DNA of 64,000 bases. Source: Sphingomonas sp. BGYR3. Its GTDB lineage: Bacteria > Pseudomonadota > Alphaproteobacteria > Sphingomonadales > Sphingomonadaceae. Below, piece after piece: positions 25,007 to 47,975 of the stretch (the stretch's first letter is position 1; each line of letters starts with the position of its first letter). The notes beneath the pieces were generated by a model. It did no database searches. It saw only the letters and a program-made list of their open reading frames with translations, and had not been told where the DNA came from. The DNA is taken from the NCBI RefSeq assembly GCF_025153455.1, contig NZ_JANZNT010000001.1, forward strand, positions 1,932,001 to 1,996,000. Direction: 5' to 3'. Made by a program: the position numbers and the translations under genes.

Positions 25007-25533
25007 GACTGCCTCCTCATGTCCGCTATGGAAATTGAGGCTATTGCCGGGTCCCGTGAGCCGACATGCGGGATTTTACGGACTGCGAATGATCGCGTTA
25101 GCTGCGAGCGGGTGGATCATGCACATCATGTCGATCGCCGCTGAGTCGCGCTTCCCTGCAAACCGGCAGTCGAGCGCCATCACAAGCGCCGGGCGGTGCT
25201 CAGCCAGCAGCAGATGGGAATCAGGTGTCGTTGAGTATTTCTGAAATCTATGGATAGGATATTCGTTAAACAATTCCGATGGCCGATTCCAATACAATAA
25301 TTTGTTCAATTAAACATGAGCATAATTTGTAAAATACGGACCAGATTTAACTATATAATATCCAGTTCATTATATGATTTTTTGGACGAATAATCCCTGA
25401 TTTCACCCAGGATCATTTTGGCGTGCCCTGCATAATAATGGGATCAATTTGAAAAATATTCCATTTTGGTCAAAATCGTGCGATAATCGAAAAAAAAGAG
25501 CAGAAAGGCGGCCGGAGCGATCGGCGGCAAGGG
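25007..25533. other. AT-rich divergent control region before fixL
   Basis: The 527 bases between the stress-protein gene and fixL include a stretch from about 25200 to 25490 much richer in A/T than the surroundings. An imperfect palindrome ATTTTGGTCAAAAT (25471-25484) lies 50-60 bases before fixL and is a candidate operator. No gene is visible. Confidence 0.4.
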
Positions 25534-27420: not shown

Positions 27421-28040
27421 GCGAAAGGCTGTTGGTCCACATCATCGATGACGAAGATGCCGTGCGGAGAGGCGCGAGCTTTTTCCTTAAAACATCCGGT
27501 TATGCGGTCCGGACCTGGGAATCCGGGGTCAGCTTTCTGAAGGAAGTCAGGCACGCTGAAACCGGATGCATCCTGCTCGACCTGCGAATGCCGGAAATGG
27601 ACGGCCTGGAGCTTCAGCAGCAGCTGAAGCAGCGCGGCGTGACGATGCCGATCATCGTACTGACCGGTCACGGCGATGTCGGGGCCGCCGTCCGGGCGAT
27701 GAAGGCCGGGGCGGTCGATTTTCTTGAAAAGCCGTTCCACACCGATGTGCTGCATGATGCGGTCGGTCGTGCGTTCAGGTGCATCGAAGCGTCGAGGGAC
27801 ACCATGGTCCGAGCGGCCGACGCGGAAGTCGTTCTCGGGGTCCTGAGCGATCGCGAGCGTGAAGTTCTGGATGGCCTGGCGCAAGGGTATCCCAACAAGA
27901 CGATCGCCTACGATCTCGGCATTAGTCCCCGCACCGTCGAGGTGCATCGGGCGAACATCATGTCGAAACTGCGCGCACGCAGCCTTTCGGAAGCGTTGCG
28001 CATCGCGTTCGCGGCCGGGATGGGCGAAGGTCGATCCTGA
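27417..28040 (+). CDS. fixJ: FixJ-type response regulator
   Basis: The 207-residue regulator has a receiver domain with acidic pocket D11/D12, phospho-acceptor D55 (CILLDLRMPEMDG), the Thr in LTGHGD and the Lys in LEKPF. Its LuxR/NarL-type helix-turn-helix is IAYDLGISPRTVEVHRANIM. The partner is the overlapping FixL. In known systems FixJ activates fixK, and a Crp/FixK-like gene lies at 33610. The C-terminal third is nearly identical in motif to the second regulator at 40029, so the two pairs are paralogues. Confidence 0.93.
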   Translation: MSERLLVHIIDDEDAVRRGASFFLKTSGYAVRTWESGVSFLKEVRHAETGCILLDLRMPEMDGLELQQQLKQRGVTMPIIVLTGHGDVGAAVRAMKAGAVDFLEKPFHTDVLHDAVGRAFRCIEASRDTMVRAADAEVVLGVLSDREREVLDGLAQGYPNKTIAYDLGISPRTVEVHRANIMSKLRARSLSEALRIAFAAGMGEGRS

Positions 28041-28441
28041 AGGGTCATGCCGCTGCCTCGCGGCGACCGACCGCTTCGGTTTCGAGTGCCTCATATGGCG
28101 CAAACCCCGAAGCGTCGCAGATCAGGTTGATCAGAATACGCACTTCAAACCAGCATGCGTCGCCACCCGCGCGAGGCGATAGCGCGTCTGCTCACATCCG
28201 TGGCGGACGCCAGTCCGGGTTGGCAGGGCGATACGTAAAGAACCGAATGGCCGCTTCAGGGGCAGTCGATACGCTGGCATGCATCGGGAAGGCGATGCGT
28301 TGATGGCTGCGCGATCAACCCGCGACCCTTACGCCGCTGTCGGGGCCATGGGCACCAGGATTTGGTTCGGACCAGTCATCGCCAACCCCGCCGAGGCGCG
28401 CGCATCGCTGTGCAATGTTCGGTCATTTGAAGGAAATTGGT
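28041..28441. other. gene-free region after fixJ
   Basis: No convincing reading frame, terminator or RNA gene is visible in these 400 bases. TTGATCAG at about 28126 contains one FNR-like half-site without a partner. Confidence 0.3.
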
Positions 28442-29101
28442 ATGGACGGTCGTGAATCCCAGATCCGACATCTGATCGTCCTCGGTCACCCCGGACCCGC
28501 CGGCTTCAATCACGCGGTCGCTGCCGCCTATGGCGATACCGTTCGCGCTTGCGGGCAGGAAGCGGTGGTTCGGGACCTCTACATCCTCGGCTTCAACCCC
28601 TGCCTGACCGCCGCCGAGCGATCGACCTCTGGTCGGGGCGCGCTCGGCGAAGACGTCAAGATCGAACTCGATCTGATCCGCGATTGCGAGGTGATTGTGC
28701 TTGTCTATCCGATCTGGTTCGGCATGCCGCCTGCAATCGTCAAGGGCTATGTCGACCGCGTCTTTGGCGCCGGTTTCGCCGCCGATAATCTAAAGACCTT
28801 GACGCCCCACCCACTGCTTCATGGCAAACAGCTGATCATCTTCAGCTCGTCGGCATCGACCCGCCCCTGGCTTGAGGAGAGGGGGCAATGGCAGAGTTTG
28901 CACCAGGCCTTCGACCTTTATCTCCAGACCGTCTTTGGCTTTTGCGAGACGCAGCACGTCCATTTCGACGCCGTGGTGGAAGGCGGCGCGACCCAACATG
29001 TCGAGGAATGCCTGGCCAGTGTGGAGGAGCGGGCGCGAAAGCTGTGCGCCGCGCTGCTGCACGGACGCCGCCGTCACCGGTTTGAGCATTCACCGGTCTG
29101 A
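28442..29101 (+). CDS. NAD(P)H dehydrogenase (quinone)-like flavoprotein
   Basis: The 219-residue protein has a flavodoxin-2 fold: the FMN/FAD phosphate loop LIVLGHPGPAGFNHAVA, then IVLVYPIWFGMPPAIVKGYVDRVF, the hallmark of the NQO1/MdaB/KefF group, and SSSASTRPWLEERGQ. It should reduce quinones or electrophiles with two electrons. ATG 28442 is chosen for its AAGGAAA six bases upstream; an ATG at 28415 is in frame. The last 28 bases overlap the convergent histidine kinase gene. Confidence 0.87.
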   Translation: MDGRESQIRHLIVLGHPGPAGFNHAVAAAYGDTVRACGQEAVVRDLYILGFNPCLTAAERSTSGRGALGEDVKIELDLIRDCEVIVLVYPIWFGMPPAIVKGYVDRVFGAGFAADNLKTLTPHPLLHGKQLIIFSSSASTRPWLEERGQWQSLHQAFDLYLQTVFGFCETQHVHFDAVVEGGATQHVEECLASVEERARKLCAALLHGRRRHRFEHSPV

Positions 29102-29937
29102 TAGCCGGGGATATCCATTTGCGCGCGATCGCGCGCTAGCGGGTCTTTGGACCAGCGCGCGGGGCTGGACCATGCGGGCAGGTCGATCGCGATGAGGGTG
29201 CCAGCACCCGGACTGCTGCGAAGACGCAGCCTGCCGTGCATGTCTTCGACAAAGCGGCGGACCTGCTGAAAGCCGGTTCCGTGGGCACCAAGTGTCGGCA
29301 ATTGCGTCAGCAGGTTGCAGCGGACCTCCCCGACCATACCGCATCCGCTGTCAAGGACGAGGAGCCGGATGTGCCCCTGGCGCACCCGCAAGCGGATCCT
29401 GATCGACCCTGGCCGGCTCATCGCAGCCCTGGCGTTGGCGACGAGTTCGATCATCAACCCATCGAAGCGGCTTTGCACGGCCTCGATCAAGGAATCGTCA
29501 TCAACCAGGTCAAGGATCAGGCGATTGCCCCGACCGGCGATCATGTGGAGGAGCGGTTCCAGAAGCAAGATGCGCGCGCGCAGGCCGAATGTCTCGGGCG
29601 GTGGTTCAGACGCAGCGGCGAGCAGATTGGTGACGATCGCTCCTCCGCGCGCTGCAGCTGCCTCGATCGCGTCCAATATCTGGCGCCTGCGCGTGTCGTC
29701 GGGTCCATCCTCGAGCAAATGCCGGGCGGATGCGATCGCCCCGAACAGATTGCGCAAGTCGTGCGCCCATTCGCGAATGTCATGTGGAGCAGTGCCAGCG
29801 CGGATAATGGTCAAGAGGGGTCTCAATCCTGATCGAGGGATGCCCAGAATGGGGCGGTCCGGAACCGGATCGAATCCGCAACATCCCTTAGCCAGCCGGC
29901 ATTTGCGGGTGTCGGATTGTCGGATGCGCGACGCCAT
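29074..29937 (-). CDS. soluble histidine kinase without recognisable sensor domain
   Basis: The 287-residue protein has an H-box DIREWAHDLRNLFGAI with the phospho-acceptor His, an N-box MIELVANARAAMS and a G-box LVLDSGCGMVGE, then GTGFQQVRRFVEDMHG. The Asp-Leu-Arg-Asn after the His places it in the HWE-like or NtrB-like (HDLRN) group rather than with the FixL-type HELNQP kinases. The N-terminus is uncertain: ATG 29937 is chosen, but ATG 29994 and TTG 30063 are in frame with little sign of coding. No partner regulator adjoins it. It diverges from the BON gene. Confidence 0.75.
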   Translation of the reverse strand: MASRIRQSDTRKCRLAKGCCGFDPVPDRPILGIPRSGLRPLLTIIRAGTAPHDIREWAHDLRNLFGAIASARHLLEDGPDDTRRRQILDAIEAAAARGGAIVTNLLAAASEPPPETFGLRARILLLEPLLHMIAGRGNRLILDLVDDDSLIEAVQSRFDGLMIELVANARAAMSRPGSIRIRLRVRQGHIRLLVLDSGCGMVGEVRCNLLTQLPTLGAHGTGFQQVRRFVEDMHGRLRLRSSPGAGTLIAIDLPAWSSPARWSKDPLARDRAQMDIPGYQTGECSNR

Positions 29938-30062
29938 GCCGGTTACGGCTCCAAGCGGCCAACGCGAACTACGCAACACTCCTGATTCTCGCATCGGTGT
30001 CGTTGGTTGAAAGTCCGGCAGGCCGGGGTCCTGATGCCCCGCACCGTTGATGGCGGAGACCA

Positions 30063-30716
30063 ATGATGAAAACGGATACCCAATTGCAGAAGGATGTCGT
30101 CGAGGAGCTCAGCTGGGCACCCGATGTCGAGCATGGCCATATCGGCGTCGCGGCGCACGGCGGCGTGATTACGCTCAGCGGCCATGTCCCAAATTATGCG
30201 ATGAAAATGGCCGCCGAGCATGCTGCGCGCCGTGTTATCGGCGTAAAAGCTGTCGCACAGGAAATTGAGGTTCGCTTCGCGAGCGATCCCAAAACTTCTG
30301 ACGAGGAAATCGCGCAGCGGATCCTCAGCCTGTTCGCCTGGGATGTTTCAATCCCCGACAGAAGGGTCCAGGTGAAGGTGGAGAAAGGATATGTGACGCT
30401 GACCGGCGAGGTGGACTGGCACTATCAGAAACAGGCCGCCTCGAAAGCGGCTGGCCGGATCAGCGGCGTGAAGAGCGTGGTAAACAGTCTTAACGTCAGA
30501 GAGCGTCCAGCAGCCTTTGACGTTCGCGAGCGCATCATTGCTGCACTCAAGCGCTCTGCTGAAGTCGACGCGAACTCGATCGAGGTGTCGGTCGACGGAT
30601 CGACCGTCAGGCTCGGCGGGTGGGTTCGTGCATGGAATGAGCGGCGGATCGCAGAGGCAGCTGCCTGGGCCGCCCCAGGCGTGCTTCGCGTCGACGACAA
30701 TATCGTCCTGGCCTGA
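30063..30716 (+). CDS. BON-domain protein (three BON repeats)
   Basis: The 217-residue protein has three BON domains, each ending in a GVI/GYVTL(S/T)G-type strand: GGVITLSGHVPNY, KGYVTLTGEVDWHYQK and GSTVRLGGWVRAWNE. No signal peptide is visible, so it may be cytoplasmic, unlike OsmY. BON proteins bind membranes or stabilise envelopes under osmotic and other stress. GGAG precedes the tandem ATGATG start. Similar three-BON proteins commonly sit with Usp and FixLJ genes in alphaproteobacterial stress islands. Confidence 0.88.
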   Translation: MMKTDTQLQKDVVEELSWAPDVEHGHIGVAAHGGVITLSGHVPNYAMKMAAEHAARRVIGVKAVAQEIEVRFASDPKTSDEEIAQRILSLFAWDVSIPDRRVQVKVEKGYVTLTGEVDWHYQKQAASKAAGRISGVKSVVNSLNVRERPAAFDVRERIIAALKRSAEVDANSIEVSVDGSTVRLGGWVRAWNERRIAEAAAWAAPGVLRVDDNIVLA

Positions 30717-33609: not shown

Positions 33610-34266
33610 ATGACCGATCGGTTTTATGCAATAATCGATGATCAGACGATGATAAGATTTGAGCCCAAATCCATTGTCTTCGATCAGGGGGAAGAGAATT
33701 TCGCGTGGTTCGAGGTGATCGAGGGCGCGCTTCGACTTTGCCGCTATCTGGAAGATGGAACGCGGCATATCGATCGGTTTGCACTCGCTGGAGATATTCT
33801 GGGCACCAACAGCGAGGTCTATTCCGCATCTGCCGAAACCCTGCAACCGACGGTGCTTCGGCGACACGCGCTATCCGGAATGGACGGTGAGTGGCTCAAC
33901 GCCCATGCCGCACAGGCGATCGCGAGCCTAGAACAAAGCGTTCTGCTGTTGCGGCGTCCGAGCGCGATCCAGCGGATCGCAGCCTTTATCGACCGGCTGG
34001 TATCCCGGATCGGCAGGGGCGACATTGTCGACCTGCCGATGTCGCGTGTCGACATTGCCGACCATCTCGGCCTGACCCCCTCAACCGTCAGCCGATCACT
34101 GGGCACCCTGGCCCGGATGGGCATCATCGAAACGGACGGGCTTCATCGAATATCCGCGATTGATCGACGCCGCCTGGCCCTGTTGGGCGGGCTTGACGAC
34201 CCGTCATCGCTGATCGTTGATCGCGATGACACTCGCCTGTTCGGACTTGCAGGGGCAACGCTGTGA
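33610..34266 (+). CDS. Crp/Fnr (FixK-like) transcriptional regulator
   Basis: The 218-residue regulator has a cyclic-nucleotide-fold sensor domain, a dimerisation helix and a C-terminal winged helix, DIADHLGLTPSTVSRSLGTL. The recognition helix T-V-S-R-S is of the Fnr/FixK kind. No N-terminal four-cysteine cluster is present, so it should not carry an Fnr iron-sulfur cluster, like FixK. It could be the output of the FixLJ pair on the same island. It overlaps the downstream barrel gene by four bases (GTGA), so the regulator and the FapF-like exporter are co-translated. Confidence 0.9.
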   Translation: MTDRFYAIIDDQTMIRFEPKSIVFDQGEENFAWFEVIEGALRLCRYLEDGTRHIDRFALAGDILGTNSEVYSASAETLQPTVLRRHALSGMDGEWLNAHAAQAIASLEQSVLLLRRPSAIQRIAAFIDRLVSRIGRGDIVDLPMSRVDIADHLGLTPSTVSRSLGTLARMGIIETDGLHRISAIDRRRLALLGGLDDPSSLIVDRDDTRLFGLAGATL

Positions 34267-35558
34267 GCGCGCGGCTGTTCGTCGCGCTCCTGGGATCGAG
34301 CATTTGCACATCCACAGCCTGGGCCAGCCCTCAGGTGTCCGATGCCGAAGCGTTGAAGGCTGCCATTGCCGAACAGCAGCGGCAGATCGAGGCGCAGCAG
34401 CGGATCATCGAACAGCAACGGATCGCTATTGATGATCTACAAGGCCTTTTGCTCGGCGCGGATATCGTGACCTATCGGGGCCGCGGCGTGCAGGGGCTGA
34501 ACCCATCGTCAAGCGACGTGGCTCAGAAATCGCCCCAGGCTGGCGCTCCGAGACCGGAGGCGGCGCCGCCTGCCGCGCAGCAGACCGCGGAGCCGGCCAT
34601 GCCGGACGCGCCGGTCGGCGACCAGCCCGAGGTCGAACGCGACGTTCGCAACGAGGTCGCGGCGGTGCCTCAAGATGTGGGCGTACTGACACCCGCCGGG
34701 CGGATCGTCATTGATCCGACGTTCGAATATACCCAATCCGCCACCGACCGGCTGGTTTTTCGAGGTTTCGAGCTGGTCCCGGGGATCCAGATCGGCTTGA
34801 TCGAGGCCAGTCGAGCCCGCCGCGAAACGATCGCGTCGACCATGGCCGTACGCTACGGCCTGACCAACCGGCTGGAAATCGAGGCACGGATCCCCGGACT
34901 GCACCGGTACGACCGGATCGAGGTGGCGCAGCAGCGCGACGAGGGGATTGTGCGATCCATCAGCCTGAAGGAAGACGATATCGGCGATATCGAGTTTGCA
35001 GCACGCTATCAGCTCAATTCGCAACGCGGTCAGAACCCGATCTGGGTCGCATCGCTGCGGGTCAAAAGCGATACCGGCAAGGGGCCGTTCGATATCGCCT
35101 ATGACGAATTCGGCGTGGCGACGGGGCTGGCGACAGGATCCGGTTTCTGGGGTGTGCAGCCAGGTCTCAGCATGTTGTTGCCGTCCGATCCCGTGGTGAT
35201 TTTCGCGGGTGCGACCTATCTTTGGCATATCGGCCGCGACGTTGATCGCCTGATCGGCAGTGCGCCGATCGGCCATGTCGATCCCGGCGATGCAATATCA
35301 GGCAATTTGGGATTTGGATTCGCGCTGAACCCGCGATTTTCCTTCGCACTGGGGTATCGCCATTCCTATCTGATGGCGACCAAGACCGAGATTGGGGATG
35401 GCATTGAACGATCCAGACCCCTGCAGGTCGGATCAATGACGCTCGGCATGTCCTATCGTCTGAATGTGCGCCAGACCATCAGCTTCGGCGTGGAGTTCGG
35501 CGTGACTGAGGATGCGCCCGACGTCAGCGTCACGCTCCGGTTCCCGTTCGTATTGTGA
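34263..35558 (+). CDS. FapF-like outer-membrane barrel with coiled coil
   Basis: The 431-residue protein has a signal peptide ending near AWAS. A Gln/Glu heptad coiled coil (about residues 30-60, KAAIAEQQRQIEAQQRIIEQ), a Pro/Ala-rich linker and a beta-barrel of about 280 residues follow, ending in FPFVL. The barrel starts with VGVLTPAGRIVIDPTFEY and contains VRYGLTNRLEIEARIPG, as in FapF, the trimeric exporter of Pseudomonas functional amyloid, and related 'transporter' (Phenol_MetA_deg-like) proteins. The coiled coil plus barrel layout is that of FapF. It is coupled to a Crp-like regulator and converges on the C39 peptidase operon. Role as amyloid exporter is inferred. Confidence 0.75.
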   Translation: MSARLFVALLGSSICTSTAWASPQVSDAEALKAAIAEQQRQIEAQQRIIEQQRIAIDDLQGLLLGADIVTYRGRGVQGLNPSSSDVAQKSPQAGAPRPEAAPPAAQQTAEPAMPDAPVGDQPEVERDVRNEVAAVPQDVGVLTPAGRIVIDPTFEYTQSATDRLVFRGFELVPGIQIGLIEASRARRETIASTMAVRYGLTNRLEIEARIPGLHRYDRIEVAQQRDEGIVRSISLKEDDIGDIEFAARYQLNSQRGQNPIWVASLRVKSDTGKGPFDIAYDEFGVATGLATGSGFWGVQPGLSMLLPSDPVVIFAGATYLWHIGRDVDRLIGSAPIGHVDPGDAISGNLGFGFALNPRFSFALGYRHSYLMATKTEIGDGIERSRPLQVGSMTLGMSYRLNVRQTISFGVEFGVTEDAPDVSVTLRFPFVL

Positions 35559-35585
35559 CTGTGACCACGCGGAAAAGCGCCACGA

Positions 35586-36170
35586 TCAGAAACGGGCGGC
35601 GCTGATCGACAGGCGGGCGATCGTGTCGTTCAGGTTGCCTGCAAGCGATGCCTGTCCGATCACGTCGCCAAAGGGCTGATAGCCGGTCACATCCAGCGCC
35701 ACGTCCATTTCCTGGCGCATGGCAGTGGCGCTTGCGGTGTTCAGCACGATGTTCTGAATGCCGCCGTCCGTTCGCTGAATGAGTGCGGTCTGGCCTGCAT
35801 TCGCAAGGAATACAGGCTGGCTGCCAACGCTGAGCCGCAGGGTCCCCGTTTCGATAAAGCCGGTTTGCAGCTGTTCCGCTGTCGCCGGCGTCAGCGCGGC
35901 GGATACCCAGCGTTCGGTCTGTGCGCCGCCGTCCTGCCAGCGGACCGTGGTTTGCATCACCAGATCGCCGTTGAGATAGGTCCGCATGTCGGCGCCCAGC
36001 GAAATGGTCATGCCCCCGATGACGAATCCGCCCCTCTGGGCATCCAGTGTCGCATCATCACATGGCTCGATCGATTCAAGCGCCAGTTCCTCTGCTCTGG
36101 CGGTTGATACCAGCCCTGCCAGCAGCATGCCGGTGGTCATCATGAAGCGAATGATTGCAGGTACGCGCAT
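35586..36170 (-). CDS. exported protein with double-glycine motif, amyloid-module partner
   Basis: The 194-residue protein has a Sec signal (MRVPAIIRFMMTTGMLLAGLVSTARA). About 20 residues later comes ATLDAQRGG (GG at 47-48), resembling the double-glycine leader end of its neighbour at 36951. The remainder is beta-rich, with Thr/Gln/Asn-rich strands (ISLGADMRTYLNGDLVMQ, GIQNIVLNTASATAMRQ). I do not know a named family. It is the last gene of the four-gene operon, ten bases after the C39 peptidase gene. It could be a minor fibre subunit or a peptidase substrate. Confidence 0.7.
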   Translation of the reverse strand: MRVPAIIRFMMTTGMLLAGLVSTARAEELALESIEPCDDATLDAQRGGFVIGGMTISLGADMRTYLNGDLVMQTTVRWQDGGAQTERWVSAALTPATAEQLQTGFIETGTLRLSVGSQPVFLANAGQTALIQRTDGGIQNIVLNTASATAMRQEMDVALDVTGYQPFGDVIGQASLAGNLNDTIARLSISAARF

Positions 36171-36180
36171 GTCGCTGATC

Positions 36181-36954
36181 CTAGTTTGCGGTGCCGACCC
36201 GGACGTCGAGCAGGATTTGAGGGGAGATCTGGTAATCGGGCGGCAAGAAGCTGGTCAGGTCGCCAACCGATGTCAGCATGGCGCCCTGATCGTCCATTGG
36301 GGCCTGGGACCAGGGTCCCCAGTCACTGGCCAGATCAAAGGTCGGGCGCCGCCTGTCCGGCGTGGCGAGGATTGCCAGCGCGATGCCATTCCAGTGCTTT
36401 GCGAACGTCGAGGCGGGATATTGGGTCAGGCCCAGCATAGGGTCGCCGGTTAGCACCTTGTTGCCGCGCATTCCCTTGATCACCACAAAATGCTTGAACC
36501 CGTTCAGGTCGAGCAGGACGATCGTTGGCCGCCGCACCTGGCGAAGCTGGTCCATCGTCAGCATGAACCCCTCCGCGCGATAGCCGATCGATGTCAGATA
36601 GGTCCGCATGTCGAGTAGGGAAAAGCCATGCTTGCGGATCGCGTCCCGATCGCCTGTTCGCCACATCGCGGCAAAGCTCTCACGTTCCGACACCGGACGC
36701 CCGTAATGATAGCTGAGCAGGGTCGAGATGGCCGCCGAACCGCAGCTGAAGTCATAGCCTTGCCGCGTGACGGTGCGGAATGGGATTTCCCACCAGCTCA
36801 TTACGCGGACGGTATAGTTGCCACCCTGCTCAGGGCCTAACCTGACCTGGCCATGCGCCTCTGCCGCGGATAGCGCGCACAGCGCGATCAGCGCTGCGCG
36901 CGCGAGCCCAAGGCTCGGCAGGTGGAGGTGCATGGACGGTGCGGACCGGATCAT
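36181..36954 (-). CDS. periplasmic C39 peptidase, FapD-like
   Basis: The 257-residue protein has a signal-anchor or signal peptide (to about residue 34) and one C39 papain-like domain. Catalytic C71 lies in GYDFSCGSAAIS, H155 in GFKHFVVIKG and D171 in TGDPMLG. FapD of the Pseudomonas amyloid operon has this same stand-alone exported C39 design, and the sequence around WWEIP...QGYDFSCG fits that group rather than bacteriocin ABC transporters. C39 enzymes cleave after Gly-Gly leaders, and both neighbouring small proteins contain RGG motifs. The start overlaps the upstream stop (ATGA). Confidence 0.87.
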   Translation of the reverse strand: MIRSAPSMHLHLPSLGLARAALIALCALSAAEAHGQVRLGPEQGGNYTVRVMSWWEIPFRTVTRQGYDFSCGSAAISTLLSYHYGRPVSERESFAAMWRTGDRDAIRKHGFSLLDMRTYLTSIGYRAEGFMLTMDQLRQVRRPTIVLLDLNGFKHFVVIKGMRGNKVLTGDPMLGLTQYPASTFAKHWNGIALAILATPDRRRPTFDLASDWGPWSQAPMDDQGAMLTSVGDLTSFLPPDYQISPQILLDVRVGTAN

Positions 36955-37271
36955 GGCTGAACAGTGACCGTCAGCGTCATGCCAGCCTGAAGATTGTTCT
37001 GAGCGCCAGTATTGATCACGAAATTACCGATGCCATTGAAGTTGGACAAGGCATTGTCCGCCAGGGAGATGTTGCCAGCGACATTGTCGCCCATGATGTT
37101 GCCCGATGTGGTTGCGGCAAGCGTCTGGTTGTTGACCACGATCGTCTGACCGCCGCGCAGCGCGGCGAGCTCTGTCTCCGCAAGCTGCACCGGCAAATCG
37201 TTCGATTGAGCAAGGGCAGGTGTCGCGCAGCAAAGCGCGGTCCCCAGGGCGAGGGTATGACTTATATTCAT
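36951..37271 (-). CDS. small exported protein with GG leader-like motif (candidate fibre subunit)
   Basis: The 106-residue protein has a signal peptide (MNISHTLALGTALCCATPALAQ). LAETELAALRGG follows directly (GG at 40-41), a close match to double-glycine leaders of C39 substrates. The mature part is Asn/Gly/Ala-rich (SGNIMGDNVAGN, NTGAQNNLQAGMTLTV) with no Cys. AAAGGAG lies seven bases before the ATG. It is coupled to the C39 peptidase gene by an ATGA overlap. It shares the NTG-x-N-x-QA pattern with the upstream 180-residue protein. I infer a fibre or nucleator role; no named family is recognised. Confidence 0.75.
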   Translation of the reverse strand: MNISHTLALGTALCCATPALAQSNDLPVQLAETELAALRGGQTIVVNNQTLAATTSGNIMGDNVAGNISLADNALSNFNGIGNFVINTGAQNNLQAGMTLTVTVQP

Positions 37272-37349
37272 GGAATTGCTCCTTTGCTTCCGGCCTGAAA
37301 AAGCTTCCGGACCGGGGCAGGGGGTGCCCCGGTCCGGACAGGCAGGGGG

Positions 37350-37892
37350 TCAGTCGGCGTCGCCGCCACCGCTGCCAGCGCTGCCGCTGACACCGAAGTT
37401 GACGGTCCCTTGCGCCGCAATGTTGGTGGCGGCCTGGGTGTTGGCGTTGATCCCGGTGTTCCATGCGGCATTGTTGATGCCTGCAAACGCCGCGAATGCA
37501 TTGTCATTGACCGAGTTCGACCCGCTATTATAGCCAACAGCAGTGTCCGAACCGTCCTCGCCGTCCAGATCGACGACTTCGTCCAGCTCGCGATTGATGT
37601 TCATCGCTTTCAGGGACTGGCTTGCGACAATCATCGTATTGCCGTTGTGCGAGTTGTTGCCGTCATTGTCCTGATCGGCGCTCGCATAGGTCTTGGTGTA
37701 GCTCTCGCTGTAACTGTCAGCGGCGTTGTCGACCGAGAACACGTCGAGCAGATCGTTGATGACGACGTTATCATCGCTGTTGTCGTCGATGGTGGTATTG
37801 GTCTGGCCGCCTGTGGTCTGGGCAAATGCCGGCATGGCGACGACGAAGCCTGCAGCCGCAACCGACGCCTTGATGATGATGGACACACGCAT
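37350..37892 (-). CDS. Asn/Asp-rich exported protein, candidate amyloid subunit
   Basis: The 180-residue protein has a signal peptide (MRVSIIIKASVAAAGFVVAMPAFA). The mature chain begins QTTGGQTNTTIDD and is rich in Asn, Asp, Ser and Ala (DDNSDDNVVINDL, GYNSGSNSVNDNAF), with a C-terminal NTGINANTQAATNIAAQG segment and no Cys. Low-complexity Asn/Gln/Ala sequence of this kind is typical of functional amyloid subunits, though no FapB/FapC repeat is exact. ATG 37892 has AAAGGAG six bases upstream; longer reading to 37964 is unlikely. It is the first gene of the operon, 78 bases before the next. Confidence 0.72.
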   Translation of the reverse strand: MRVSIIIKASVAAAGFVVAMPAFAQTTGGQTNTTIDDNSDDNVVINDLLDVFSVDNAADSYSESYTKTYASADQDNDGNNSHNGNTMIVASQSLKAMNINRELDEVVDLDGEDGSDTAVGYNSGSNSVNDNAFAAFAGINNAAWNTGINANTQAATNIAAQGTVNFGVSGSAGSGGGDAD

Positions 37893-38814: not shown

Positions 38815-40029
38815 ATGATGATGCCATCTCAATTCATCAGTAAAAATCTTCATGCCAACGGATCTACTGAAAAGTATGACGTGTTGGATGGGCATGAAAA
38901 ATTTCGCGATCCCATCGATGGCGACTTCATAAGTAAAATTGATTCATGCCAGATGAATAAAATTATTCATGCGTTTCCTGATGCCATGATCGTCATGGAT
39001 TCCCGCGGGATGGTTCTTTTCTTTAATGCGGCGGCTGAGCAAATTTTCGGGTTTGGCAAGCATGAGGTGCTGAACCAAAGCATTGGAAAGCTGATGTCGT
39101 TGCCAGCTGGCACCCGGCAGGACATTGATATCGTCTCATATTTTGGATCGGAAGACGTGACGGGCGGCCAGCGCTTTCGTCATGCCGTTGGCGTGCGCCG
39201 CGACGGCACGTCTTTTCCATACGAGATGATCGTCGATCGGATCCGCGTGCAGGGCAAGCAGGTTTTTGTCGCCTTCATCCGCGATCTCGAGGAACAGGAG
39301 CAATCGGCCAGGCAGTTGCGGTCGCTGTACGATGACCTGCTGCACCTATCGCGGGTTGGTGCGATGGGGGTCATGGCGGCGGCGCTCGCCCATGAGCTCA
39401 ACCAACCGCTTGCCGCAATCACCAGCTTCGTACAGACCGCCGCGGCCTTGCTGCGATCCGGCGGTACGATCGAATCGACTTGTGGTGCCCTTGATGCCGC
39501 AGCGACCGAGGCGTTGAGATCGGCCAACATCGTTCGCCGGCTGCGCGCGTTCGTCATGCGCGACGACTTGCAGCGTAGCTTTGAACATCTCTCGCGGCTC
39601 ATCGAAGATGCCATGACCCTCGCTATGGCAGGCGCCGCAGAAATGCACGTCCGATCCGAAGTCGATCTGGATGGTTTCGATCCCCTCGTCTGTGTCGATC
39701 GGATTCAGATGCAGCAGGTGCTGGTCAACCTCATCCGCAATGCGATCGACGCGATGCGGGGTGGCGGTGGCACCATCTTTGTCCGCGCCCGTCCGGCTGG
39801 AAGATTTGCCGAGATAATCGTGGCGGATACCGGTCCGGGGCTTGGTGCCGGACAATGTTCCCAGCTCTTTGATGCCTTCGTCACGGGTAAGCAGGACGGT
39901 CTCGGAATCGGTCTGGCGATTTGCAAGATGATCGTGGAGGCGCATGGCGGCAAAATCTCGGCGCGCAATCAGGTCGGCGGAGGTGCTGCGTTCTGCTTCA
40001 CATTGCCACTGACCGAAGGCGTTTCCTGA
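38815..40029 (+). CDS. soluble PAS histidine kinase, heme-less FixL paralogue
   Basis: The 404-residue protein has one PAS domain (about 45-165) and a FixL-type kinase core: phospho-acceptor H193 in LAHELNQP, N-box LVNLIRNAIDAM, G-boxes DTGPGLGA and GLGIGLAI. The PAS aligns with FixL (FNAAAEQIFGFGKHEVL, RRDGTSFPYEM), but the heme-ligand position is Q102 in TRQDIDI and the IIGxGR segment is replaced. It probably does not bind heme by the FixL mode. There are no membrane helices. ATG 38815 is preferred; upstream in-frame sequence from 38500 is not protein-like. It overlaps the next gene by one base (TGATG). Confidence 0.88.
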   Translation: MMMPSQFISKNLHANGSTEKYDVLDGHEKFRDPIDGDFISKIDSCQMNKIIHAFPDAMIVMDSRGMVLFFNAAAEQIFGFGKHEVLNQSIGKLMSLPAGTRQDIDIVSYFGSEDVTGGQRFRHAVGVRRDGTSFPYEMIVDRIRVQGKQVFVAFIRDLEEQEQSARQLRSLYDDLLHLSRVGAMGVMAAALAHELNQPLAAITSFVQTAAALLRSGGTIESTCGALDAAATEALRSANIVRRLRAFVMRDDLQRSFEHLSRLIEDAMTLAMAGAAEMHVRSEVDLDGFDPLVCVDRIQMQQVLVNLIRNAIDAMRGGGGTIFVRARPAGRFAEIIVADTGPGLGAGQCSQLFDAFVTGKQDGLGIGLAICKMIVEAHGGKISARNQVGGGAAFCFTLPLTEGVS

Positions 40030-40820
40030 TGAACGAGGCAGCGCCCAGCCTGACCGTGCATATCGTCGATGATGATGGTGTGTTCAGACGTGCCCTCAGT
40101 TTCATGCTGCGCGCCGCAAGCTATCAGCCCCAATGTTGGCCAAGCGGCTCGCATTTTCTTCAACAGCAGCGACCCCCGGGCACTGGCTGCATGTTGCTGG
40201 ACCTGCAGATGCCCGGAAAAGACGGCCTTGAGACATTATGGGAGATGAGGGAGCGAGGATTTGTTGTGCCTGTCATCGTGCTGACAGGACATGGCGATAC
40301 CGCCGCAGCCGTAAACGCGATGAAAGCTGGGGCCGTAGACCTGATCGAAAAGCCTTTTGATCGCGGGGTGCTTCTGGAAATGGTCAAGGCAGTATTCGAT
40401 CACGTGCTGCAGGCGGAGCGCTGGATCGCGCGCGAGGACTTGGCAAGGCAAAAAATTGCTGCGCTCACTCCGCGCGAAATCGACGTCCTGGAGGGGCTTG
40501 TTCGTGGCTTTCCAAACAAGACAATCGCCTATGATCTGGGGATTAGTCCGCGAACGGTTGAGGTTCACCGTTCGCATGTCATGCATAAGCTCGGTGCCAA
40601 ATCCTTTCCCGACGCGCTCCGGATTGCATTCGCTGCCGGACTGGGAGAGCCTTTCATGGTTCCGTCCGGTTCGCCTTGCTCTGGGCTGACGCCGCCCGAT
40701 TTCGACCTACATCAGCACGGCGGCGCTGGCGGCAATGCCTATCAGCCGGTTTGTTCATTGAACGCACGCAACACGCTGCGCGACGGCGATATCCGAAACC
40801 AATTCGGCAATAGCCGATAG
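40029..40820 (+). CDS. FixJ-type response regulator, second copy
   Basis: The 263-residue regulator has a receiver with D58 (CMLLDLQMPGKDG), LTGHGDT and IEKPF, and a LuxR-type helix-turn-helix, IAYDLGISPRTVEVHRSHVM. About 55 extra C-terminal residues after the usual end (from PFMVPSGSPC) have no match in the first FixJ and look unstructured. It is coupled to the heme-less kinase. It may merge another signal with the FixLJ oxygen response, since the DNA-binding helices of the two regulators are almost the same. Confidence 0.9.
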   Translation: MNEAAPSLTVHIVDDDGVFRRALSFMLRAASYQPQCWPSGSHFLQQQRPPGTGCMLLDLQMPGKDGLETLWEMRERGFVVPVIVLTGHGDTAAAVNAMKAGAVDLIEKPFDRGVLLEMVKAVFDHVLQAERWIAREDLARQKIAALTPREIDVLEGLVRGFPNKTIAYDLGISPRTVEVHRSHVMHKLGAKSFPDALRIAFAAGLGEPFMVPSGSPCSGLTPPDFDLHQHGGAGGNAYQPVCSLNARNTLRDGDIRNQFGNSR

Positions 40821-40942
40821 CGCCGCGCGCACCACTTTGAAATCATGGATCAACGATCTGCGCTCCATTCCATCCGTTTCGGCGCTACATCAAACACCAA
40901 CCGTGACGATGTGCGCATTGGCAGGGTTCAAGGAAAGCGGCG

Positions 40943-42445
40943 ATGAGGCATGAACCCATGGACCAGGGCTATGCAATATTGACCACCGATCAGATGGCGC
41001 AGACTGATCGTCTGGCTGTCGCAGCGGGCATTTCCGAACAGCAGCTGATGGAAAATGCAGGCGCGGCAGTTGCAGCCTGCATCATGGACCGCTGGTCGCG
41101 TCGTCCGGTTGCGGTCCTGTGTGGGCCCGGCAAAAATGGGGGTGACGGTTTCGTCGTCGCCCGCAAACTGCGGGACGCAGGCTGGCCGGTTCGCCTCGCC
41201 CTGTTCGGTGAACCGGTGAAGCTGGTGGGCGTTGCCAAGGTCAACGCCGACCGCTGGGCGTCCCCGATCGAGCCGTTCGGCCTGCACGTGCTTGATCAGG
41301 CCGAACTCATTGTCGACGCCGTGTTTGGCGCGGGCCTTGATCGAGCGTTGCCGCGCCTTGTGATCGAAGTGCTTATGGCGGCCTCGTCCCGGGCGATCCC
41401 CATCGTGGCTGTCGATTTTCCAACCGGCGTCATGAGCGATACCGGCGTCGCGGCCGGTGCTGTTGCCGCTTCGCTTACCGTCTCATTCGTTCGAAAGAAG
41501 CCGGGACATCTCTTGCTTCCGGGCCACACGCTTTGCGGGGAGCTTGTCATCGCCGATATCGGCATAGCTTCCGGCATCATCGATGCCGTCAATCCCCGGA
41601 TCTTCGAAAACAGTCCAGACTTATGGATCGATCAGCTTCCGCGTCTGCACGAAACCACCCATAAATACGACAGGGGACACGCGGTTGTTTGGGGCGGCTT
41701 CCCGGCCACCGGCGCTGCTCGCCTGGCTGCGGCAGCGGCGGCGCGAGCGGGGGCAGGACTGGTGACGGTTGTTGTCGGGCCCGAAGCCTTCCCAATCTAC
41801 GCCACCGCACTGACCAGCATCATGGTTCATCCGGTCGCAGATGCCGATGCACTTGAACGGTTCCTCAGCGACCAGCGCATCGGGGCAATGCTGATTGGTC
41901 CGGGGGCCGGCGTGACAGCGGCAACGCGCGGCGCTGTCCTGGCCATGTTGGCGACGGGTCGTCCAACCGTCCTCGATGCCGACGCCCTTACGGTATTCAG
42001 CGGGAAACTCGATTCACTCCGTGCAGCAATAACCAGTCCCTGCGTGCTGACGCCGCATGACGGGGAGTTCGCCAGGTTATTCAACATTGCTGGCGATCGA
42101 CTGGAACGCGCGCGTGCCAGCGCTGCCCAGAGCCGCGCAACCGTTGTGCTGAAGGGCAGCGACAGCGTCATTGCCGCGCCTGACGGGCACGCGATCATCA
42201 ATACCAACGCACCCCCGACGTTGGCGACGGCGGGATCCGGCGATGTCCTGGCTGGCATCGTGCTTGGCCTGCTCGCCCAAGGCATGTCATCCTTTCACGC
42301 TGCGGCTGCCGCGACCTGGATACATGGGGCTGCGGCGACGCAATTCGGCCCTGGCCTGATTGCAGAGGATCTGCCTGAAATCATGCCGGCGGTGATTGGA
42401 CGGCTCGAGGCGATGAAGTCGCCCTTGCTGCGCCGGACCCGCTGA
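40943..42445 (+). CDS. nnr: bifunctional NAD(P)H-hydrate epimerase/dehydratase
   Basis: The 500-residue repair enzyme restores NAD(P)H from its hydrated forms. The N-terminal YjeF_N epimerase domain (1 to about 215) has CGPGKNGGDGFVVAR. The C-terminal ribokinase-like ADP-dependent dehydratase domain (about 225-490) has VLDADALTVF, LTPHDGEFARLF and the catalytic GSGDVLAG. AAGGAAA lies before ATG 40943. Chromosomes usually carry one nnr elsewhere, so an island copy in a stress cluster is probably an additional gene. Confidence 0.93.
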   Translation: MRHEPMDQGYAILTTDQMAQTDRLAVAAGISEQQLMENAGAAVAACIMDRWSRRPVAVLCGPGKNGGDGFVVARKLRDAGWPVRLALFGEPVKLVGVAKVNADRWASPIEPFGLHVLDQAELIVDAVFGAGLDRALPRLVIEVLMAASSRAIPIVAVDFPTGVMSDTGVAAGAVAASLTVSFVRKKPGHLLLPGHTLCGELVIADIGIASGIIDAVNPRIFENSPDLWIDQLPRLHETTHKYDRGHAVVWGGFPATGAARLAAAAAARAGAGLVTVVVGPEAFPIYATALTSIMVHPVADADALERFLSDQRIGAMLIGPGAGVTAATRGAVLAMLATGRPTVLDADALTVFSGKLDSLRAAITSPCVLTPHDGEFARLFNIAGDRLERARASAAQSRATVVLKGSDSVIAAPDGHAIINTNAPPTLATAGSGDVLAGIVLGLLAQGMSSFHAAAAATWIHGAAATQFGPGLIAEDLPEIMPAVIGRLEAMKSPLLRRTR

Positions 42446-42541
42446 ACGCAGTCGCACTCAATCCGGCATCCATGGCAAGTCGGCATCGAACCGGCATCCG
42501 GCATAGCGGCATCCCGTCGGGCCGTGGGTCTGCGCCCCCGG

Positions 42542-45136
42542 TTACGACTCCTTTGCCTTGGCATGTTTTGCCACCTGAAGCGTGCCAAGCACGGCTGTGC
42601 CTGCGCCTAGCGCCACCAGCCCATCGGTCCAGCCGAGCGCGGTCATTCCCAGCAGCTGACCCGCAGCGGGAAGGAATTCGGCGATGAGGAGGACCGCCGC
42701 TGCCAATGCCGCAATCACCGCTAAAGCCATGTTGGGGCGACCGAAACCAGCCAGCAGGGTCGCCGAGAAGGAGCGATTGACCAAGACGAGACTGAGGATC
42801 GCGCCCACAAGTGCGAAGAACACCGTTCCGCGCAGCTCTGTCTCGGGCGCACCGCCCGTCAGCATCCACATCAACACCGCCGCAACGCTGGCAAGGGCAA
42901 CCAATCCCTGCGCGATGGACCAGCCCAGCAAGGCGCGCGACAGAAGCAGGGTGCCCGCAGGCCTCGGGGGGCGACGCATCACGTCCGCCTCGTCGGTCTC
43001 GGCTTCGAAGACGAGCGAGCAGACCGGGTCGATGATCATTTGCAGCAGCGCGATATGCACGGGTCCCAGAAGGATCGGCAGACCAAAGAGCAGGGGCATC
43101 AGTGCCAGCCCCGCTATCGGGATATGCACTGCGACGATGAACCCCATTGCCTTGCGCAGATTGTCGTAGATCCGCCGCCCCATGCGGATCGCAGTAGCGA
43201 TCGAACCGAAATCGTCGTCGAGAAGCACGATTGCCGCCGCTTCGCGCGCAACATCGGTACCGCGCTTCCCCATCGCGATCCCGATATCAGCCGCCTTGAG
43301 CGCCGGCGCGTCATTGACGCCGTCACCTGTCATTCCGACAACCTCGCCTGCGGACTGGAAGGCTTTGACGATCCGAAGCTTTTGCTCTGGCATGATCCGC
43401 GCGAACACGCCCACGCGCCGAACACGCTGCGCCAACTCGGCATCGTCCATCGCAGCGAGCATCGTGCCAGTGATCACTTCGCCTTCGTCGATTCCGGCGG
43501 CCCGAGCAATTGCCCGCGCCGTTTCGGGATAGTCTCCAGTGATCATCACCACCCGGATGCCGGCACTGCGGCACTGTTTAACGGCCCCAGGCACCGAAGC
43601 GCGCAGGGGATCACGAAGCCCGATCAGGCCGTGGAAAACAAACTTGAACCCGCGCTGGGTCGCGGGAAAATCACTTCCGCGCCAGCGCGCCTCGGCGATC
43701 CCGAGCACGCGCAATCCCTCGCGGGCCATCGCGTCGACTGCGACATGCATCGATGCACGCGCATCCCCGTCCAATCGACAGAGCTCGGCGATGGCTTCAG
43801 GCGCGCCCTTCGAGGCGATAAGATGGTCCTCGACCGCGCTTCCCGTCTGCCAAACATGGGATATGGCCAAGAGGCCCGGATCGAGCGGATATCGGTGTCT
43901 CAAATCCCAATCGGCTCTGGCGGACTTGCGATTTCGTGTGCTGCGCTGCGTTCGGTCAAGGTCGTGAAATGCGATCTCCATCGGATCAACCGCCTGTGGA
44001 GCGCTTGCGAGCAGCGCCAACTCAGCGATCGGCACAAAGGCGTGCGGGAGCGGGGTTCCGTCGGGAGAAAAGACGCTCCCGTCAGAGAGGCGCAGCTCTG
44101 CAACGGTCATGCGGTTCTCCGTGATCGTGCCGGTCTTGTCCGTGCACAGCACGGTTGCAGAACCCAGTGTCTCGATTGCCGCCCCGCGCCTTGCGAGCAC
44201 GCGCTCGCGGGACATCCGCACAGCCCCCATCCCCAGGAAAATGGCGAGCACCACCGGAATTTCCTCGGGCATCATCGACATGCCAAGGGCAATGCCGGCA
44301 AGCGCCGCCTCGAGCCAGGTTCCGCGGAGCAGGCCGAACAGCAGCACGGCGAACCCGCTGATCAGCACTGCGCCGATTGCGAACAGTGCAACCAGCCGGC
44401 GTGTCTCATGATAGAGCCGCGGCGCCTGGACCTCCATCAGCACCAGCGACTGACCAATGCGCCCGATTTCGCTTTGCGCTCCCGTCGCCGCGATCCGGCA
44501 CAGCCCACTGCCGCGCACGACGAGCGTGCCGGAGAAGGCATAGGCAAGACCATTCCCACCCGGTCTTGGCCTGGTCTCGGCCACACCTTCCGTTGTCCTT
44601 GCCTTTGAAACCGGGGCCGACTCTCCGGTCAGCAGCGACTCGTCCATCGCCAGTGTATGATTCTCTACGATCCAGCCGTCAGCGGGCACCCGGTCGCCCT
44701 CGCCAAGCAGAACCAAGTCCCCTCGCACAACCTCGCGGCCCGGAATGTGCCGATGCAGACCATCGCGCAGCACCAGTGCCCGCGGACTGGCCAGGTCGCT
44801 TAGCGCCTCAAGCGAGCGCTCGCTGCGCGTTTCCTGCAACGCTGTCACGCCTATCGAGAAGCCGGCAAAGGCGAGCAGCATCAGGGCTTCACCCAGATCG
44901 CCGAGCGCCAGATAGATGATGCCGCCGGCCACGAGCAACAACAGCATCGGCTCACGCATCACCCCGAGCACAACGGCAATCGTCGATCGGCGTTGGCGGC
45001 GCGCAAGCTCGTTATAGCCTTCCTCCGTCAGCCGCCGTCGTGCCTCTGCTTCTTCCAATCCGACCTGCTTCGGACGCTTTGCATCAGTGCCTTGCGAGAC
45101 GGCGACCCGATCGATCGCATCCGGCTCAGTCGGCAT
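42542..45136 (-). CDS. P-type cation-transporting ATPase (P2-like)
   Basis: The 864-residue inner-membrane pump has an N-terminal cation-ATPase domain (LTEEGYNELARR), the actuator loop LLTGESAPVSKA, PEEIP in helix M4, the phosphorylation site CTDKTGTITEN, TGDYPETA, and the hinge GDGVNDAPALKAADIGIAMG. M6 has IIDPVCSLVFEAE, and VMRRPPR follows, as in Ca2+-type P2 ATPases, but PEEIP in place of PEGLP leaves the ion open (Ca2+, Mn2+ or another divalent). ATG 45136 is chosen over 45208 because AGAGATCG precedes it. It overlaps the Usp gene by 11 bases. Confidence 0.92.
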   Translation of the reverse strand: MPTEPDAIDRVAVSQGTDAKRPKQVGLEEAEARRRLTEEGYNELARRQRRSTIAVVLGVMREPMLLLLVAGGIIYLALGDLGEALMLLAFAGFSIGVTALQETRSERSLEALSDLASPRALVLRDGLHRHIPGREVVRGDLVLLGEGDRVPADGWIVENHTLAMDESLLTGESAPVSKARTTEGVAETRPRPGGNGLAYAFSGTLVVRGSGLCRIAATGAQSEIGRIGQSLVLMEVQAPRLYHETRRLVALFAIGAVLISGFAVLLFGLLRGTWLEAALAGIALGMSMMPEEIPVVLAIFLGMGAVRMSRERVLARRGAAIETLGSATVLCTDKTGTITENRMTVAELRLSDGSVFSPDGTPLPHAFVPIAELALLASAPQAVDPMEIAFHDLDRTQRSTRNRKSARADWDLRHRYPLDPGLLAISHVWQTGSAVEDHLIASKGAPEAIAELCRLDGDARASMHVAVDAMAREGLRVLGIAEARWRGSDFPATQRGFKFVFHGLIGLRDPLRASVPGAVKQCRSAGIRVVMITGDYPETARAIARAAGIDEGEVITGTMLAAMDDAELAQRVRRVGVFARIMPEQKLRIVKAFQSAGEVVGMTGDGVNDAPALKAADIGIAMGKRGTDVAREAAAIVLLDDDFGSIATAIRMGRRIYDNLRKAMGFIVAVHIPIAGLALMPLLFGLPILLGPVHIALLQMIIDPVCSLVFEAETDEADVMRRPPRPAGTLLLSRALLGWSIAQGLVALASVAAVLMWMLTGGAPETELRGTVFFALVGAILSLVLVNRSFSATLLAGFGRPNMALAVIAALAAAVLLIAEFLPAAGQLLGMTALGWTDGLVALGAGTAVLGTLQVAKHAKAKES

Positions 45137-47053: not shown

Positions 47054-47195
47054 CGATCGGTCTCCAGAAATACCTCGTTTTTCGACCGCGCGTACCACGT
47101 TTTCGCCCCTCCAATTCGTCGGATGGGCATGGACGGGCACGGACGGCCGAGGCCGAGCGGGTCTGTCAGGCGAAGGTCATCAGGGAGAAAAAGTC

Positions 47196-47974: not shown

Positions 47975-47975
47975 C

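Follow-up and report, generated by a model that had tools for sequence, protein, structure and literature searches.

A probable second FapD-FapF system in Sphingomonas with putative double-glycine leaders in two of its small exported proteins

A 64,000-nucleotide stretch of the Sphingomonas sp. BGYR3 genome (contig NZ_JANZNT010000001.1, forward-strand positions 1,932,001 to 1,996,000; hereafter, the window) contains a locus related to the Fap amyloid system of Pseudomonas. On the forward strand, a gene for a Crp-type regulator is followed by the gene for a FapF-type outer-membrane barrel; opposite them, on the reverse strand, lies a four-gene operon that encodes, in this order, the small exported proteins S1 and S2, a FapD-type C39 peptidase and a third exported protein, S3. 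We consider it likely that this locus is a second FapD-FapF system, in which the C39 peptidase would cut Sec/double-glycine leaders off S2 and off the FapE-like S3 and possibly cut the barrel linker, and S1 and S2 would form an extracellular fibre. Judging from sequence comparison, the new elements are the C39 double-glycine leader in S2 and S3 and a system that appears to be a sister of canonical Fap with unfamiliar fibre proteins. The homologies, gene order, conserved leaders, hairpin and co-occurrence described below were observed computationally.

Homologies and gene order

The barrel matches NCBIfam FapF with E = 2.1e-37 (129 bits; curated cut-off 700) and the solved FapF structure (PDB 5o67) with E = 9.8e-29 over residues 146-429, and the peptidase matches NCBIfam FapD with E = 2.8e-42 (144.5 bits; cut-off 330) and Pfam Peptidase_C39 with E = 3.4e-18. 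By manual count along the translation, peptidase residues Q65, C71, H155 and D171 match the C39 catalytic residues, and the best solved structure in a profile search with the FapD alignment was 6mpz (E = 4.2e-12); in Pseudomonas, the FapD cysteine is required for FapC secretion (PMC5557850). Lower scores were obtained with the corresponding components of the Fil “putative pilus” system, FilC for the barrel (E = 8.7e-21, 74.7 bits; cut-off 630) and FilB for the peptidase (E = 1.1e-32, 113.6 bits; cut-off 475). Both proteins are clear relatives, yet they stay under the equivalog cut-offs.

An initial annotation of the window had proposed a FapF-type barrel facing a four-gene operon and a divergent Fap-like module whose subunits are non-canonical, and both proposals are supported. 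Its coordinates and gene order proved correct, the FapF and FapD matches stand far above background, and the catalytic residues, the coiled coil of the barrel and the signal-peptide-like N-termini of all five exported proteins (the last two read by eye) were seen again. The translational coupling of the regulator and barrel genes that it had claimed is real, the two genes overlapping by 4 bases (GTGA); the S2 and peptidase genes share a 4-base overlap as well.

The S3 gene lies directly 3' of the peptidase gene, as fapE does. Window S3 alone gave no NCBIfam FapE match, and an alignment of 20 S3 proteins compared with 15 FapE proteins by hhalign gave a probability of 95.8 (E = 7.4e-9 for a single comparison, 192 columns). 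A broader S3 profile matched 17 of 398 Pseudomonadota genomes, and three of these matches (G558, E = 3.8e-5; G532, 4.4e-4; G340, 7.8e-4) coincide with places found by the FapE profile, which provides independent support for the homology of S3 and FapE. S3 therefore appears to be a remote FapE homologue, so that FapE would not be missing from the locus; the claim of the initial annotation that FapA, FapB, FapC and FapE could not be recognized holds for the first three and is not supported for FapE. An iterative FapE search drifted to FapB and FapC through shared repeats and was replaced by a choice of FapE proteins based on gene position.

FapA had no match among the seven window proteins scanned against NCBIfam, and the operon has no extra gene, although a genome-wide search was not made; known Fap systems often have fapA deleted (PMC3792158). 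The NCBIfam FapB and FapC profiles did not match the operon proteins, and S1, S2 and S3 of the window had no Pfam or NCBIfam match above noise except S2 residues 1-42 with FapE (E = 0.013). The locus resembles Pseudomonas Fap in its FapD-type exported C39 peptidase, its FapF-type coiled-coil barrel, the FapE-like gene right after the peptidase gene and the leader in the FapE-like protein. It differs in having neither a detected FapA nor FapB and FapC with Fap repeats, in the additional protein S2 with a leader of its own and in the divergent barrel gene beside the Crp gene. The search for FapA and for FapB/FapC repeats found neither, and for this reason we do not file the locus as canonical Fap, although it probably works in the same way.

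Functional analogy, and no closer relation, connects the locus with curli (CsgA-G), which have Asn-rich subunits, a minor subunit and an outer-membrane pore. Curli are not known to include a C39 peptidase, and Csg families were absent from the Pfam and NCBIfam matches of the seven window proteins scanned.

Table 1. Features of the Fap-like locus, with positions in the window
Feature	Position	Strand	Basis
Crp/Fnr/FixK-type transcription regulator	33610..34266	+	Pfam HTH_Crp_2 1.8e-15, cNMP_binding 1.4e-7; NCBIfam FixK 8.8e-31, under cut-off
FapF-type outer-membrane barrel, N-terminal coiled coil, GTG start	34263..35558	+	NCBIfam FapF; PDB 5o67
RG-centred leader-like 12-mer LLGADIVTYRGR, barrel periplasmic linker, weak in window	34449..34484	+	Matrix 5.8, rank 158/511
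S3, FapE-like exported protein, 194 amino acids	35586..36170	-	S3 alignment; hhalign versus FapE
S3 double-glycine leader CDDATLDAQRGG, residues 37-48, predicted C39 cut at its end	36027..36062	-	Matrix 6.45, rank 135/511
FapD-type exported C39 peptidase, 257 amino acids	36181..36954	-	Pfam Peptidase_C39; NCBIfam FapD; PDB 6mpz by profile
S2, small exported protein, 106 amino acids, leader and one NTG module	36951..37271	-	Alignment; hhalign versus S1 C-terminus
S2 double-glycine leader LAETELAALRGG, residues 30-41	37149..37184	-	Matrix 15.4, rank 27/511
GC-rich hairpin and T-run in the S1-S2 gap, putative attenuator or partial terminator	37306..37338	-	14 pairs, T-rich tail
S1, Asn-rich exported protein, 180 amino acids, presumed major fibre subunit	37350..37892	-	Signal peptide read in sequence; C-terminal module common with S2

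Distribution of the operon and its presumed fibre subunits

Relatives were sought in 199 genomes of the family Sphingomonadaceae (in the GTDB sense), 43 of which had a FapD-profile match at E ≤0.001. Thirty-three of them hold 34 matches with E <1e-36 (two in G121; the window's own is one), and the weak matches of the other 10 lie in open frames of at least 700 amino acids, which we take for transporter-type C39 proteins. The neighbourhoods of the 33 strong matches beyond the window's (L031-L063) fall into two classes and an outlier, L048. Class A comprises 12 loci (peptidase E of 1e-61 to 1e-71) with a near-canonical fap operon, which, judged by eye, encodes a LuxR-type regulator, a FapA-like protein, FapB and FapC with Fap repeats, FapD, FapE, an extra exported protein and FapF; in L031, a LuxR-type helix-turn-helix protein accompanies matches to FapB (7.1e-22), FapC (6.9e-20) and FapE (7.5e-17), all under cut-off. 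The extra exported gene lies between fapE and fapF, and its product in L031 (8766-9380) contains a PG_binding_1 domain (E = 3.3e-11); this protein might fasten the secretion apparatus to the cell wall.

Class B consists of the window and 20 loci with the layout S1-S2-C39-S3-barrel. It was divided into B1 (the window, L047, L055, L061, L062 and L063), with the barrel opposite the operon strand, and B2 (the other 15 loci, including L051, a contig fragment that ends before S3 and the barrel), with the barrel on the operon strand. The S2 and S3 profiles matched the identical 21 of the 199 genomes, all with a class B peptidase, and neither matched any of the other 178, so that S2 and S3 never occurred without the peptidase; this confinement, for which the initial annotation had proposed a check, indicates that the module is real and more than chance.

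In an IQ-TREE phylogeny of 61 peptidases of the FapD type, midpoint-rooted merely for display, B1 and B2 join six further sequences from alphaproteobacteria in one group of 27 rows (support 99/97). B1 (100/99), B2 (100/95), class A (99/94) and 18 out-of-class rows (96/87) each form one side of a branch, and class A, those 18 rows and the alphaproteobacterial row L180 group together (94/96). By this tree, the window enzyme falls in a lineage apart from canonical FapD.

A sample of the class gave a match in 27 of 190 genomes, and eight genomes outside the window's family account for nine matches with E ≤1e-29 (G688 twice, G703, G712, G742, G651, G711, G705 and G728). Inspection of the neighbourhoods of the nine matches, together with those of two further genomes, G696 and G641, revealed a class B-like layout in L181, L182, L183 and L187, and also in L185, where no barrel was seen, and in L186, where S3 was not called. 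L180 is canonical-like, a distant short C39 protein occurs in L188 and L190, and no peptidase was recognized among the gene calls of L184 (G742) and L189 (G696). In a phylum sample, the FilB profile matched 33 of 299 genomes. The 13 neighbourhoods inspected include four class B-like loci, namely L209, L210, L211 (with a 396-amino-acid protein in the S3 position) and L213 (no barrel among the printed genes), four Fil-like ones (L201, L204, L205 and L206) and L212, with a C39 protein, a barrel and poor gene calls; no peptidase was recognized in L202, L203, L207 and L208. L213 (5988-11370) contains a tandem duplicate of S1-S2-C39-S3, in which the copies of S2, the peptidase and S3 have similar lengths and N-termini.

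In G688 (L180 and L182) and in G283, Halomonas sp. NO4 (L082 and L210), a canonical-like operon coexists with one of class B. The suggestion of the initial annotation that the locus represents an alphaproteobacterial branch was therefore not borne out: similar operons occur in other classes, including at least one Halomonas, and the window's own family also contains near-canonical fap. The similar operons elsewhere in Pseudomonadota point to a second Fap-like lineage rather than an alphaproteobacterial one. This lineage may perhaps match canonical Fap in frequency, given 17 S3-profile matches (14 of them beyond fapE, most of these being profile matches only and four having supplied rows of the profile) and 20 FapE-profile matches in the Pseudomonadota sample. 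A literature search on Fap in sphingomonads gave no “fapC” or “Fap amyloid” among the matches listed.

A C-terminal module is common to the presumed fibre proteins S1 and S2 (hhalign probability 95.9, E = 5.6e-9), and in five genomes the S2 profile has a match within the S1 gene as well; S1 ranges from 163 to 567 amino acids across class B loci. L048, a long-branch outlier with a different layout, was for that reason excluded from the S1-S3 alignments and from the hairpin and leader counts, and kept in the matrix scan described below, with its one small protein taken as S3. A hairpin (-22 to -37 kcal/mol) occupies the S1-S2 gap in 21/21 class B loci, with a T-run in the window. In 19 of the 21 gaps (the exceptions are L049 and L055), it lies below all 20 same-gap shuffles, which preserve base composition only, as it does in 9 of 10 further class B gaps; the junctions past S2 are mostly 0-15 bases. 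A scan of the region for hairpins with T-runs gave 4 sites against 3.7 expected. Such a hairpin fits partial termination, which would raise the output of the upstream gene, so that S1 would be the most expressed gene and the main subunit, in the role of FapC. The gap 3' of FapC in class A likewise contains a hairpin below all shuffles in 10 of 12 loci (exceptions L036 and L040), a likeness to the fap operons of sphingomonads.

Counting against a Fap-type fibre, the published minimal Fap repeat spacing, G-X4-N-X3-G-X6-N (PMC3792158), occurs in 0/21 S1 proteins. It is likewise found in 0/21 S2 proteins, and profile comparison with FapB was weak for S2 (probability 21) and negligible for S1 (1.3). 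An alternative, which we rate as unlikely, is that the system secretes a product other than an amyloid, such as an adhesin, a surface protein or a bacteriocin-like peptide, and that the Asn-richness merely reflects disorder. This alternative would account for the lack of a significant Fap subunit match in S1 and S2, for the weak resemblance of the leader region of one S2 protein (L047) to a bacteriocin-like peptide family (E = 0.0072; none of the 21 S2 proteins had a Pfam match) and for the annotation of the related Fil proteins as a putative pilus system. It fits less well with the position of S1 before the hairpin, as in class A FapC, with the FapE-like S3, and with a spacing one residue shorter than that of Fap, G-X4-N-X3-G-X5-N, which occurs in 13/21 S1 proteins (shuffles: mean 2.1, maximum 6) and 7/21 S2 proteins (mean 0.2, maximum 2), although this form was picked post hoc and window S1 has no exact fit to it.

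Putative double-glycine leaders in S2, S3 and FapE

The published leader rule for C39 peptidases is L(-12)-x3-E(-8)-L(-7), ending in GG, GA or GS, and hydrophobic pockets of LahT accommodate the leader residues -4, -7 and -12 (PMC6363468). S2 and S3 carry, shortly after the signal peptide, a segment that reads roughly L(-12)...E(-8)L(-7)..M/L(-4).G(-2)G(-1) and that was absent from the initial annotation. Among 20 aligned S3 proteins, L-7, R-3, G-2 and G-1 are invariant (20/20), and position -12 is hydrophobic in 19, position -8 acidic in 13 and position -4 hydrophobic in 13. In the 21 S2 proteins, L-7 and G-2 are invariant, with a hydrophobic residue at -12 in 21 and at -4 in 17. Window S2 fits all positions of the rule (L-12, E-8, L-7, hydrophobic -4, G-2 and G, A or S at -1), and window S3 fits at L-7, G-2 and G-1 only. 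No such pattern was found in the first 110 residues of S1 (21/21). Gene starts were assigned by a simple codon-usage caller, and some are incorrect; for example, they fall inside or after the signal peptide in S2 of L055, S3 of L182 and L183, and FapE of L037 and L041. In the AlphaFold model of S3 (pLDDT 71.7), a helix spans residues 39-46 and is followed by RGG and by strands from residue 49.

The same register was found in canonical FapE. In a redundant set of 92 fap loci outside the family (18 of them from genomes of other classes and 74 mostly from Pseudomonas and Halomonas, with some genomes present twice), 94 fapD genes were recognized, 92 of them followed directly by a same-strand open reading frame of 150-420 amino acids. 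The pattern hydrophobic(-12)-x3-D/E(-8)-[LMIV](-7)-x2-[LIVMQF](-4)-x-G(-2) occurs in 86 of these 92 frames, in 43 distinct 12-mers, all of which have E-8, R-3 and G-2, L or M at -7, and R (42) or K (1) at -1; the six remaining frames lack the acidic -8 residue and keep L-7, G-2 and R/K-1. This pattern suggests that Pseudomonas FapE, which has L-K-D-Q-E-L-A-N-L-R-G-R-Y, carries a double-glycine leader with Arg replacing the last Gly, in difference to S3, where the leader ends in Gly-Gly in 20/20.

A weight matrix was built from the 43 FapE 12-mers, which were pre-filtered by the published-rule pattern and include none from the window's family or from other alphaproteobacteria, and was run over 511 predicted proteins of 34 sphingomonad neighbourhoods. 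Ranks 1-39 are all FapE, S3, S2 or FapF, the first unrelated protein being at rank 40; Gly occupies position -2 in 36 of these 39, and the other three (ranks 30, 32 and 36) are coiled-coil stretches of FapF. The 99.9% shuffle level was exceeded by 11/12 FapE and 16/21 S3 proteins, and by 0/22 S1, 0/34 FapD and 3/322 other proteins. In 24 further loci (297 proteins), 14 of the 20 top-scoring proteins are encoded no more than two genes away from the peptidase gene, compared with 73/297 proteins overall. True Gly-Gly leaders are present in all three partners in L183: S2 (ISTEELAEARGG), S3 (LSNEELADLRGG) and the barrel (LSDDELGEARGG).

Other systems with C39 peptidases offer a comparison. In the Fil system, which shares with the window a C39 peptidase (FilB) and a FapF-like barrel (FilC), a DUF6160 protein beside the FilB-like peptidase of L204 (Pfam E = 3.5e-27) carries LKALDDSALADVTGQAGI, in the same leader register with Gln at -1, and L206 looks alike by eye; the window differs in having no DUF6160 protein in its operon (Pfam). 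The PCAT/AMS exporters (ComA, LahT and those of bacteriocins) share the C39 family and the leader positions L-12, E-8, L-7, hydrophobic -4 and G-2. In contrast to these exporters, which cleave in the cytosol, the window peptidase is free and exported and the leader stands behind a signal peptide, so that cleavage would be periplasmic.

A related motif centred on Arg-Gly occurs in the linker between coiled coil and barrel in all 12 class A barrels (e.g., ISPVEAAGMRGTF and LAPDDLVTMRGRY), with R-3 and G-2 invariant, and at the linker position in all six B1 barrels; among B2 barrels it was recognized by eye in 2/14 (L053 and L054). In class A, mean entropy is 1.57 for the motif columns, 2.23 for the following linker and 0.76 for the barrel. 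Cutting of the barrel linker is a branch-specific possibility.

Several observations weigh against reading these segments as cleavage sites and S3 as FapE-like. Gly occupies position -1 in only 5/21 S2 proteins (otherwise R, M, K or Q), so that the bond cut could be one residue off, and -8 is acidic in only 9/21. Canonical FapE has R or K at -1, and classical C39 sites differ in this respect. In window S3, positions -12, -8 and -4 are occupied by C, T and Q, respectively. Only 5/21 S2 and 8/33 FapF proteins exceed the 99.9% shuffle level, three of the latter through coiled coil without G(-2). Because window S3 and the window barrel rank low with the matrix (Table 1), their motifs rest on alignment with relatives. 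The motif columns of class A barrels are no more conserved than the preceding coiled coil (entropy 1.59), the printed N-termini of Pseudomonas FapF have no such motif as judged by eye, and a fold search with S3 gave no solved structure below 1e-3.

The conserved segment might, alternatively, serve S2, S3 and FapE as a helix for docking onto the barrel or onto the barrel's coiled coil rather than as a protease site, in the way that the N-terminus of CsgF binds CsgG in curli. FapE has been likened to CsgF in a 2025 review (PMC12822426), and the segment is helical in the models of both S2 (a low-confidence model, pLDDT 54) and S3. We nevertheless find this improbable: a similar motif is found in the barrel's own linker in class A and B1, the published C39 rule fits position by position in most S2 and S3 proteins, and FapE N-terminal peptides were not seen in Pseudomonas cell lysates (PMC5557850). 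We prefer the reading as leaders, in which the helper proteins probably mark where the protease of the system cuts.

Variants of the arrangement were seen in more distant loci. The S3-position proteins of L187 (7445-8461) and L181 (8019-9437) have long N-terminal extensions with the RGG leader retained within (ALDDGALAGMRGGF and LDEGELSGHRGGF), and one of the two carries a SPOR domain (E = 3.8e-8). L188 (5915-7990) combines a distant short C39 protein of 184 amino acids with a barrel and a small exported protein containing MLSDTQMDSVVGG, which is very like a classical double-glycine leader.

Genomic neighbourhood, proposed mechanism and implications

A Crp-like gene adjoins the barrel gene in five of the six B1 loci, the window included and L047 excepted (checked with Pfam in the window and L055). 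The adjacent FixL/FixJ-like pair at 38815-40820 consists of a FixL-type kinase (NCBIfam FixL, E = 2.8e-96, below cut-off) and a response regulator. From gene position, our guess would be control by Crp and this pair. A FixK-box scan of the whole window that allowed two mismatches gave 31 matches (17.2 expected); no box with zero or one mismatch lay in the operon region, and none was convincing. A sigma-70 promoter scan gave 1 site against 1.9 expected.

Another FixL/FixJ-type pair of PAS kinase and response regulator, at 25546-28040, flanks the operon region on the other side. Genes nearby (24206-30716 and 38815-45136) encode a universal stress protein (24206-25006), a BON-domain protein (30063-30716) and a cation P-type ATPase (42542-45136). 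The class A fap operons of L032, L033 and L036 have, by eye, similar stress-protein, BON, HSP20-like or FixLJ-like neighbours, and it looks as if class A and window loci lie in a common stress/low-oxygen neighbourhood. Mobile DNA at 46491-56909, with an rve integrase, an IS66 transposase and another transposase, presumably of IS3 type, surrounds an RHS-repeat protein (49932-52526). Conjugation genes (TrbE/VirB4, TrbL/VirB6 and VirB8) at 59328-63651 may belong to a conjugative element at the right end of the window.

The mechanism that we propose for cleavage, export, fibre formation and regulation is as follows. All products except Crp would reach the periplasm through Sec, as their N-termini suggest. 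There, the C39 peptidase would strip the second, double-glycine leader from S2 and S3 and, in the window's branch, may also cut the periplasmic linker of the barrel. Removal of the leader would license S2 and S3 to start or anchor export through the barrel. S1, presumably made in excess because the hairpin lies after its gene, would be the main subunit of an Asn-rich extracellular fibre, S2, with its C-terminal module common with S1, a minor or nucleating subunit, and S3 would act like FapE. The system would be switched on in particular growth conditions by Crp, perhaps joined by the adjacent FixLJ-type kinase pair. That the locus is a decayed or non-functional fap remnant is very improbable. 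Although it is absent from the two same-genus genomes of the family sample (FapD profile) and from the five of the phylum sample (S3 profile), in the window all frames are open and catalytic residues, leaders, overlaps and hairpin are present, and the layout is kept in 21 genomes of 17 genera.

FapD is essential for secretion of the Pseudomonas Fap amyloid (PMC6173800 and PMC12822426). Rouse et al. noted that Fap proteins are without canonical C39 sequences and suspected FapE and the FapF linker (PMC5557850), a 2018 review called the FapD substrate undetermined (PMC6173800), and a 2025 review states that FapD is “thought to” process the FapE N-terminus and the periplasmic region of FapF (PMC12822426). 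In the open-access Fap literature searched, no paper naming the FapD cleavage site was found. The true Gly-Gly end of the S3 leader makes the site readable, and the same register can then be read in canonical FapE as E-L-x-x-L-R-G-R.

A broader interpretation, to which we give an even chance, is that a Sec signal peptide followed by a double-glycine leader is a general periplasmic sorting code and that free C39 peptidases (FapD, FilB and class B) cut FapE and S3, S2, DUF6160-type proteins and some alphaproteobacterial barrel linkers. If so, Pseudomonas FapE would be cut at L-x3-E-L-x2-L-R-G-R, and one cut would both mature the cargo and open or close the secretion channel. The published substrates of FapD being unproven, the predicted sites can be tested directly. 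The locus thus supplies exact predicted cleavage sites, a point left open for Pseudomonas, and in S2 a possible new substrate.

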